Assembly (NCBI GenBank): GCA_002707645.1
Contig: PANN01000014.1
Location: 6,120-63,113 of the forward strand
Source of the DNA: Fidelibacterota bacterium
GTDB lineage: Bacteria; Fidelibacterota; Marinisomatia; SCGC-AAA003-L08; D37C17
Length of the DNA stretch: 56,994 nt
Direction of reading: 5' to 3'
Positions 8,301 through 11,974 of the stretch are shown piece by piece. Both the position numbers and the translations under genes were made by a program. The number at the start of each line of letters is the position of its first letter. The stretch's first letter is position 1. The notes below the pieces were generated by a model. It was not told the DNA's origin, searched no databases, and saw only the letters and a program-made list of their open reading frames with translations.

Positions 8301-9836
8301 CTAATTTAGTATAAGATTAACTACGGATACAATATCAAGAACATTTAAATATCCATCAGTATTGAAATCAGCAGCTAAAAATTCATTTTGCGAAGGTTCT
8401 GAAGTATCTAAAATGTAGTTAACAAGCATAACGATATCTAAAACATTAATTAAACTATCAGAATTTATATCACCGGATTCATATGTATTTATAGATATAT
8501 TTTCTATATGTTCAAATCCAGTTTGACCATAAATATTAGTTACTAATAGCTTTACCTCAAAATCTCCGCTTTGGGTATATGTATGATTTGCAAATCCAGA
8601 AGTATTAATTTCAGTTGAACCGTCACCAAAATCCCATGTCCAAGTACTTAATTGTTCTGTGTTTACGACTTCAGATAAATCTATAAATGTAACTGAATTA
8701 TCTATAACTTCGTATTCAAATAATGCTATTGGGCTTTCATAGATATTAGGTATTAAATCAATTAAAGCATTTTGCCAAGTATCGAAACCTCCCATTGTAC
8801 TCAAATTGAAATAACCATTATTGTAGCCTCCCCAACCCCAATTACAATGTAAATTATTACCTTGATATCCATCAACATTCCAAGCATGTCCTCCATTGCC
8901 ATAACTATCACTAAATCCACTAAATAGAATAGGCTTTGAGTTATCTAACTGGTCTTTTAGGATATTTCTAAAATCTGTTATGTCATCAATGACATCTCCA
9001 TCAGCGTTGCTTACAATATCTGAATATTTAAAAAAGGTTTGCATGGCATACTCAGCAGATGGGTATACACCCTCACACTGAGCACCTGAACCGCTATTAT
9101 CATAATCCATATTAACAGCCACTCCACTATGATATAATAATAATCTTGATGGGTTAGTAGCATAAGTAGGAGCCATCGAATCAAAATCATAAAAAGAAGT
9201 ACTAAAATCAACTGAAAGCTCACCTAAATCATTCTCAATGTATGTATTAGAACCTTGACCTTGTTCAGGAAATCCCCAATAATACATAATTTGGGCCATA
9301 GAAACTGCAACACATCCAACTGGACCGTTAAAACCAGTTTCTGATGTAAGAGTATTATTCCATGATCCAGATTGATCAAATTCTGCATCAATAAGAGGGC
9401 TAACATTGCGGTAATCCCTGTTTGAGAATTCATTATTCATAAAAACGTTCCATTCTCTTTCAGATTCATCACTTATCTGAAAGTTAGAATTCAATGAATT
9501 ATAAATACTATTTTTCTGACTATTTATAAAAAAGTCGAAATTATCAGGCAAATCAATAGTTTTGAAATTTGAATCAAAACTATAACCAACTATGGGATTT
9601 ACTTTATCAGAAGCAGCAATAAGAATAAAACCTCTAGGAGCTAAATGATGCAAATACATTACAGTTGTGTTATTTTTTTTAATAGAGATAGTTTCAATTA
9701 TAGTATAATTCTCTTTATTTGGAGAAGAATTATATTGCTTATTAACATTTAATGCAACAATTGTAGAATTGTGCAAACTAACAGGTGCAGCAAAAGCGAA
9801 ACTAAGTAGGTATAATATAATAGATAATTTAACCAT
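8301..9836 (-). CDS. Secreted C10 (streptopain-like) cysteine peptidase with PKD-like and C-terminal dockerin type I domains
   Basis: Signal peptide; GPVGCVAVSMAQIMYYWGFP (catalytic Cys) and GGHAWNVDGYQ (catalytic His); PKD-like WTWDFGDGS; duplicated dockerin repeats GDINSDSLINVLDIVMLVNYIL and ADFNTDGYLNVLDIVSVVNLIL. Confidence 0.9.
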   Translation of the reverse strand: MVKLSIILYLLSFAFAAPVSLHNSTIVALNVNKQYNSSPNKENYTIIETISIKKNNTTVMYLHHLAPRGFILIAASDKVNPIVGYSFDSNFKTIDLPDNFDFFINSQKNSIYNSLNSNFQISDESEREWNVFMNNEFSNRDYRNVSPLIDAEFDQSGSWNNTLTSETGFNGPVGCVAVSMAQIMYYWGFPEQGQGSNTYIENDLGELSVDFSTSFYDFDSMAPTYATNPSRLLLYHSGVAVNMDYDNSGSGAQCEGVYPSAEYAMQTFFKYSDIVSNADGDVIDDITDFRNILKDQLDNSKPILFSGFSDSYGNGGHAWNVDGYQGNNLHCNWGWGGYNNGYFNLSTMGGFDTWQNALIDLIPNIYESPIALFEYEVIDNSVTFIDLSEVVNTEQLSTWTWDFGDGSTEINTSGFANHTYTQSGDFEVKLLVTNIYGQTGFEHIENISINTYESGDINSDSLINVLDIVMLVNYILDTSEPSQNEFLAADFNTDGYLNVLDIVSVVNLILN

Positions 9837-10336: not shown

Positions 10337-10644
10337 TTACATTTTAATGATTTACTAATAATTTCTGATAAAATAGAAAACTTTTTGTGAGAATCTTTCA
10401 AACTTCTATCGACCCTGCTGATATATAACGCAATATCATCACATTTATCTAAAGTATTACAAAATATTTTTTTTTCATTATCTGGCATAATTCTTATCAC
10501 TTGTTCATTAAAGTCTTCAGAATTTCTTGATATTCTTTTATCAACAAGCAAAGAATTTTTTTTCCATGTTTTACCTAAAAGTTGTAATAGTTTTATATAA
10601 TCAAATTTTAATTTCTGTTTATTTCTTATTTCTTTTTTTTTCAT
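10333..10644 (-). CDS. Hypothetical protein
   Basis: ORF overlaps the downstream start (ATGA-type coupling); no recognised family. Confidence 0.55.
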   Translation of the reverse strand: MKKKEIRNKQKLKFDYIKLLQLLGKTWKKNSLLVDKRISRNSEDFNEQVIRIMPDNEKKIFCNTLDKCDDIALYISRVDRSLKDSHKKFSILSEIISKSLKCK

Positions 10645-10660
10645 TTTAAGTTATATAATG

Positions 10661-10828
10661 TTAGAAAAATCTTCGAAAAAAAACTGTTAAAAAAAACTTT
10701 ACTAAGTTAGATCTTAAAAAACTATTTATCTTTAATGTTTCTAGTAAGCTCTTATAAAGAAACTTATATTTTTTTAAAAAGGAGTAAAGTAACAAAAATA
10801 CAAGTAAAATTATAATTAATCTATTCAT
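10661..10828 (-). CDS. Possible 55-aa small membrane protein (below ORF-track cutoff)
   Basis: Reverse-strand translation MNRLIIILLVFLLLYSFLKKYKFLYKSLLETLKINSFLRSNLVKFFLTVFFRRFF*. Confidence 0.35.
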   Translation of the reverse strand: MNRLIIILLVFLLLYSFLKKYKFLYKSLLETLKINSFLRSNLVKFFLTVFFRRFF

Positions 10829-10888
10829 TTTTCTAAGGTTAATAAAATGTTATTCATAATTGATAAATCGTATAATATTAAGATAAAA

Positions 10889-11104
10889 TTAATTTTTTCT
10901 TCTATTATCATTCCGTCTATCTTTAATCCTTCTATCTGTAAAGGTTATAGAAATATGTTTTATTCTTCTATTGTTATTTCTTCTATTTTTTTTTCGTCTA
11001 TCTTTATACACATTTAGTCCTTTTTTATAATTAAGATCTTTAAGTTGTTCATTCATTGGTCTTGGTATTCTATTTGGATTGGATGAGCCTAGTTTATTTG
11101 TCAT
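10889..11104 (-). CDS. Small basic protein with repeated DRR/NRR motifs
   Basis: KDRRKKNRRNNNRRIK...TDRRIKDRRNDNRRKN. Confidence 0.55.
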   Translation of the reverse strand: MTNKLGSSNPNRIPRPMNEQLKDLNYKKGLNVYKDRRKKNRRNNNRRIKHISITFTDRRIKDRRNDNRRKN

Positions 11105-11179
11105 AAATTAGTATAGTTAGTTTTTTTATATCTTTATTTATTTTAGTTAGCAAAACCAAAGAAACCTGTTTGAAATATC

Positions 11180-11306
11180 GTGGAGTAGTTCGACCTCCAT
11201 TGACGGGGTGTGAGGCTTCACAGACACCCACCTACTCCACAAGCTTCTAAAATGATAATACGAGCTTAAGGTTGCACGTAAGACCTTAACGTTTACGAAG
11301 TATTAT
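11180..11306. ncRNA. Candidate structured RNA (class unrecognised, strand undetermined)
   Basis: GC-rich island (35 of 61 nt G/C at 11180-11240 by hand count) in very AT-rich intergenic DNA. Stems GTGGAGTAG(11180-11188)/CTACTCCAC(11232-11240), GGGTGT(11206-11211)/ACACCC(11224-11229), ATAATAC(11255-11261)/GTATTAT(11300-11306), TTAAGGT(11266-11272)/ACCTTAA(11283-11289). Confidence 0.6.
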
Positions 11307-11493
11307 ATTAAAACGAATAGATTATAAAAACAAGTATTTTCAGTTCGAAAAAAGACATGTTGCGATATAGAATTATCAAGATATTGTCTATATTCATTAC
11401 CTGTTATTTTAATAAAAAAGATTTTATTATTTCAATTCTGAATTAGCATTTAGCAATGTAGTTTAATTTAATATCATAAAAAATGATTAAAAT

Positions 11494-11524
11494 AAAAAAC
11501 CCATCTAAAAATAGAAAGGTTTTT
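11494..11524 (-). terminator. Probable intrinsic terminator downstream of tRNA-Pro
   Basis: Hairpin AAAAACC...TCTA AAAA TAGA...GGTTTTT with flanking A/T tracts on both sides. Confidence 0.55.
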
Positions 11525-11540
11525 AAGTTTTACATCGGTG

Positions 11541-11614
11541 TCGGAACGGCTAGATTTGAACTGGCGACCTCTTGACCCCCAGTCTAGTGCGCTACCAAAT
11601 TGCGCCACGTCCCG
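11541..11614 (-). tRNA. tRNA-Pro (anticodon GGG), with two stem mismatches
   Basis: CGGGACGTGGCGCAATTTGGTAGCGCACTAGACTGGGGGTCAAGAGGTCGCCAGTTCAAATCTAGCCGTTCCGA; D-arm GCGC/GCGC, anticodon loop CTGGGGG, T-loop TTCAAAT; no encoded CCA. Confidence 0.88.
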
Positions 11615-11974
11615 TTAGTCTTTATATTTTTGTATTAAACTAACTATATCAGTAAGTGAGTTTTTGATATTTTTTAAATCTTTTTTAATATCATCTATAC
11701 TGCTAACAGATTGATTTTTAGGATAATTGAAATCATTACTAAGATGTAGCTTAGCACCTTTAATAGTATATTTTTTTTTATAAAGTAATTCTTGTATATA
11801 CTTAATCAATTTAATATCACTATCTTTATAAATACGATTTCCAGCAGAGTTTTTGACAGGTTTTAAAACAGAAAATTCAGTTTCCCAATACCTTAAAACA
11901 TACTGCTTTAAGCCAGTTATCTCGCTAACATCTCCTATAGAGTAATAAAGTTTACTAATTTTTTTAAGTGCCAT
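11615..11974 (-). CDS. MerR family transcriptional regulator
   Basis: YSIGDVSEITGLKQYVLRYWETEFSVLKPVKNSAGNRIYKDSDIKLIKYI. Confidence 0.92.
   Translation of the reverse strand: MALKKISKLYYSIGDVSEITGLKQYVLRYWETEFSVLKPVKNSAGNRIYKDSDIKLIKYIQELLYKKKYTIKGAKLHLSNDFNYPKNQSVSSIDDIKKDLKNIKNSLTDIVSLIQKYKD

Follow-up and report, generated by a model that had tools for sequence, protein, structure and literature searches.

What is the G+C-rich island that lies between a small open reading frame and a tRNA-Pro gene in the AT-rich DNA of this Fidelibacterota bacterium? The host genome is 1.2 Mb in size and 79% complete, and the window (the whole stretch of 56,994 nucleotides that was analysed) has a G+C content of 26.9%. 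When the composition of the window was scanned in 60-base segments, positions 11179-11238 reached 58.3% G+C and ranked second of all such segments. Ranks 1, 3 and 4 were tRNA genes and the next-richest islands (9035 and 12666) sit within coding genes, so that the element is the sole non-tRNA, non-coding island among the top G+C segments. A preliminary description of this DNA had reported a GC-rich island in a coding-free gap, and both statements are correct, the latter for 11105-11539, from a 71-aa ORF to tRNA-Pro(GGG). Ranking intergenic regions by G+C is an established route to structured RNAs in AT-rich marine genomes (PMC2704228, PMC6429828). The element, a single copy in the genome, is probably a small RNA without a name, confined to a few close relatives. 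It and its surroundings comprise the following features; G002 is another species of the same genus.

11180 to 11240, putative plus strand: core of the element, a three-way junction by its folds and its conservation in G002.
11174 to 11266, putative plus strand: extended conserved block, aligned without gaps and identical at 80 of 93 positions in G002; basis of covariance model R1.
11256 to 11305, no strand assigned: second hairpin, which folds in the present species and lies outside the conserved fold.
10889 to 11104, minus strand: small basic ORF of 71 aa (MTNKLGSSNPNRIP...DRRKKNRR...), with homologues.
11490 to 11524, minus strand: terminator-like hairpin (AAAAACC..GGTTTTTT) 3' of tRNA-Pro, found by eye.
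11540 to 11614, minus strand: tRNA-Pro (GGG).

The outer stem of the core is a perfect 9-bp helix, GTGGAGTAG (11180-11188) paired with CTACTCCAC (11232-11240). Such a stem with an inner hairpin had been described before, and it was found at exactly the positions claimed. Within it two hairpins are predicted, UCGA/UUGA (11190-11193/11200-11203) and GGGUGU/ACACCC (DNA GGGTGT/ACACCC; 11206-11211/11224-11229), and the extended block takes in an unpaired AU-rich 3' part. Folding of 11150-11320 gave -41.8 kcal/mol on the plus strand (z -3.35), and 1 of 200 dinucleotide shuffles was equally stable; the minus strand of the same segment gave z -0.81 against dinucleotide shuffles. When the core of the present species was folded alone, both strands folded about equally well (z -2.80 and -2.88). 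The stability beyond composition-matched shuffles that is generally looked for in structured RNAs is found here, both in the single sequence (z -3.35) and in the consensus of two species (z -4.08).

The search of the window against Rfam 15 at the gathering cut-off returned tRNA only. At E values up to 5, the region 10640-11640 gave, beyond tRNA, only a match to RefA9 (19.7 bits against a cut-off of 49), which lies outside the element at 11468-11523 and was treated as chance. The G002 copy of the element matched no Rfam family over cut-off. The preliminary description had recognised none of the RNA families whose hallmarks it looked for; the Rfam search gave no relevant match at gathering or permissive thresholds. 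Like tmRNA (RF00023), the bacterial small SRP RNA (RF00169) and RNase P RNA class A (RF00010), the element is a GC-rich, RNA-like island in an AT-rich genome. Unlike the element, these three each score over cut-off elsewhere in the genome (C23:2177-2550, C1:5163-5260 and C23:7786-8129, respectively), so the element is none of them, and its identification as a missing copy of any one was rejected. 6S RNA (RF00013) is a long hairpin-like RNA, whereas the shorter element folds into a three-way junction; 6S RNA is also expected in all genomes of the genus, whereas the element is missing from two of four. The RF00013 model had no match in the four genus genomes, the element included, a null result that is weak by itself because the control search also misses 6S in most of the distant phyla.

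The homology search that the preliminary description had called for yielded one homologue, syntenic and strongly conserved, that retains the core fold. By BLAST and covariance model, G002 carries the element between tRNA-Pro and the small ORF, as the present species does. No copy turned up in the other two genomes of the genus (G001 and G003), and beyond G002 nothing above chance was found among 245 genomes of the phylum. Weak matches of R1 in G031, G148, G043 and G006 were taken as chance, the best two because about 0.7 such matches are expected over 245 genomes and both lie inside unrelated genes. Phage, plasmid and viral-contig collections contained no match to the element at the sensitivities used. 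A near-identical strain contig (L048, JAHXBT010000017.1), filed under a Rickettsiales MAG and, judging by its sequence, probably mis-binned or mislabelled, shares 99.7% identity with the window across 8 kb and therefore offers no independent comparison.

Between the present species and G002, 60 of 67 positions of the core, 80 of 93 of the extended element and 65 of 75 of tRNA-Pro are identical. The four neighbouring genes each have 74% DNA identity, and their fourfold-degenerate sites are 43-61% identical, which is near saturation. Set against these genes and sites, strong purifying selection appears to act on the island, and the alignment suggests that the element is held about as tightly as tRNA-Pro. 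Coding in any frame was rejected, as the six frames have mostly nonsynonymous changes and most contain stops. The seven differences in the core fall at 1 of 38 paired and 6 of 29 unpaired positions (Fisher p 0.037), a marginal test whose structure comes from the same sequences. The one change at a paired position costs the outer stem of G002 the innermost of its 9 base pairs. Since there are two distinct sequences in all and none of the 21 predicted pairs has a two-sided compensatory change, the RNA status rests on conservation plus folding.

Which strand would be the RNA was judged from the same pair of species. The consensus fold has z -4.08 on the plus and -3.12 on the minus strand against column shuffles, and the pairing probability common to both species is 14.7 on the plus and 9.5 on the minus strand, the minus-strand folds differing more between species than the plus-strand folds. 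Reading the sequences also shows an alternative inner hairpin, UGUGA/UCACA, in which every pair is preserved in G002: three changes there make G-U pairs on the plus strand that would be mismatches on the minus strand. The outer stem has two extra conserved pairs on the minus strand. Taking the consensus scores, the common pairing and the G-U changes together, the plus strand is mildly favoured.

The preliminary description had also included a second nested hairpin and a minus-strand -10-like element. The hairpin does fold at about 11256-11305 (z -2.43), but the form described is not kept in G002, in which the homologous bases pair differently into a shorter hairpin (ACGAGCAT/ATGCTCGT) with a run of T's after it on the minus strand. 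This arrangement resembles a terminator for tRNA-Pro. The -10-like AATATAATA does occur within 11300-11312, but the sequence around it has no counterpart in G002. Its TATAAT is preceded at a distance of 17 bases by a poor hexamer, TTTTTA, and it was not among the sites reported by the promoter scan. On this comparison, both the second hairpin and AATATAATA should be left out of the conserved element. A structured RNA, as first proposed, is the best-supported reading of the locus, given the lack of an Rfam match, the syntenic homologue and the housekeeping RNAs elsewhere, but these two parts are not conserved in G002 in the form described.

Along the minus strand we find a MerR-type regulator, tRNA-Pro(GGG), the terminator-like hairpin, the island, the 71-aa basic ORF, a 103-aa ORF and a 144-aa ORF. 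The MerR and tRNA-Pro pair is kept throughout the order. By eye, the hairpin at 11490-11524 resembles those 3' of tRNA-Pro in other genera; the consensus terminator scan did not report it. The hairpin is A/T-symmetrical and could therefore equally stop plus-strand transcription. Downstream of the element, the plus strand carries nothing in sense orientation but merely the antisense of tRNA-Pro; an RNA read from this strand would therefore be free-standing. No plus-strand promoter is recognisable upstream of the element in either species, and no plus-strand terminator follows it in G002, where the tRNA comes at once. Between the element and the terminator, a short hydrophobic frame (MNIDNILIILYRNMSFFELKILVFIIYSF, 11312-11401, minus strand) was seen by eye in the present species only and is probably a chance frame in AT-rich DNA.

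In G001 and G003, a homologue of the 103-aa ORF (homology by eye) stands directly after the tRNA. The identity of MerR to that of the window is 81% in G002, 76% in G003 and 63% in G001. Together with the distribution of the island, these values make the island and the small ORF look like a single gain in the ancestor shared by the present species and G002, after which G002 would have lost the 103-aa ORF, a scenario drawn from four incomplete genomes. The alternative is that the element and the small ORF were lost in G001 and G003.

We tentatively prefer, at somewhat under an even chance, a free-standing, plus-strand, lineage-restricted small structured RNA of Neomarinimicrobiota. The island would be the template of this RNA, most likely on its plus strand, and the 61-base core would form a three-way junction, with the outer stem around the UCGA/UUGA and GGGUGU/ACACCC hairpins. 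The element and the small basic ORF were probably gained together between tRNA-Pro and the older downstream genes, and purifying selection since then would have been about as tight as on a tRNA. As a free-standing RNA, its rigid junction may be protein-bound or act in trans, possibly with the divergent small ORF or its product as the target.

The main rival, a possible reading though one we doubt, is that the element is a cis-regulatory leader on the minus strand, situated in the untranslated region 5' of the small basic ORF, and that its fold controls this ORF by attenuation or by binding of a ligand or protein. The element and the small ORF occur together and in the same order in both species, with 76 bases (about 57 in G002) from the element to the downstream start of the ORF on the minus strand, and in G002 no promoter is recognisable between the two. 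However, a copy of the small ORF in G001 sits at another locus and lacks the element upstream, so this ORF can do without it as a leader; the element is also absent upstream of more distant relatives of the ORF in G015. A promoter-like TTGAAA-18-TAAAAT is found upstream of the element on the minus strand in the present species (11435-11406), which would suit a leader, but the number of promoter-like sites equals the shuffle expectation. The two further conserved pairs of the outer stem on the minus strand speak for a leader, and the greater difference between the minus-strand folds of the two species speaks against it. Among published well-folded GC islands most are cis-regulatory rather than base-pairing small RNAs (PMC6429828), which again suits a leader.

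We consider it unlikely that the island works as a DNA site, in which a dyad or hairpin would be recognised by a protein or would serve a mobile element that inserted after tRNA-Pro. The insertion-like difference at the 3' end of the tRNA, where the next gene follows directly in G001 and G003, would fit such a site, as would the presence of the small ORF at other loci in relatives. Against it, the element has its single genomic copy and no match in phages, plasmids or viral contigs, and no duplicated tRNA end that would mark an integration was found (no tRNA repeat of at least 11 bases in the window). Moreover, the full 61-base junction is conserved, much unpaired sequence included, which is long for a protein site.

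It is very improbable that the island is what is left of a protein-coding gene such as mlaE, or an overlooked part of one: R1 matches the antisense of an mlaE-like gene in G031 (E 0.0028) and one minus-strand frame reads IIILEACGVGG against IIIADVCGVFG, but the R1 match falls within the chance expectation given above, a second R1 match of equal score lies in an unrelated gene, the match to mlaE has 18 bits and occurs in one species only, the 58% G+C is unlike the genes of the window, and the idea was rejected on the single-species match and the non-coding pattern of all frames. What remains of our weighting goes to readings not named here.

GC-rich intergenic RNA candidates have been described from Cand. 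Pelagibacter ubique (PMC2704228) and from HIMB5 and others (PMC6429828). Like them, the present element is an intergenic, GC-rich island with a good fold, comes from a small and AT-rich marine genome and had no family name before; some of those candidates are narrowly distributed too. Unlike them, it comes from a different phylum, is represented by two distinct sequences without covariation support, and has no regulated gene class identified. On present evidence, it is a new, unnamed and narrowly distributed candidate of a known kind and not a new kind of system. As a long shot, the three-way-junction RNA and the small basic protein might have been gained together as a two-part module beside tRNA-Pro and might work as a pair, in regulation or as a ribonucleoprotein, which would make a new RNA class of Neomarinimicrobiota. 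Among open-licence papers, almost nothing was found on noncoding RNAs of Neomarinimicrobiota (SAR406). If the preferred reading of a small RNA is true, a lineage-restricted RNA held as tightly as a tRNA is a concrete target for marine metatranscriptomes, and relatives with and without the element at the same tRNA could show the birth of a small RNA locus.

Two minor observations concern proteins. The minus-strand gene at 8301-9836 encodes a C10 peptidase that looks secreted and combines a Spi-type inhibitor prodomain with one PKD and one dockerin domain. The 71-aa ORF itself has no Pfam match; its N-terminal motif, MTNKLGSSNPNRIPK/R, is common to the ORF at 10889-11104 (minus strand), the moved G001 copy and the start of a longer protein of G015 (loci beyond the window ORF: L037:1501, L038:1501 and L039:250). 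By eye, the longer G015 protein is like a zinc metallopeptidase (HELVHTNIKNHSKEFW), and these sequences give the impression of a short N-terminal segment that moves from one protein to another. In G015, a tRNA-SeC (TCA) gene (L038:1296-1387) closely precedes the MTNKLGSSNPNRIPK ORF; the motif is thus found behind a tRNA gene in two settings at least.
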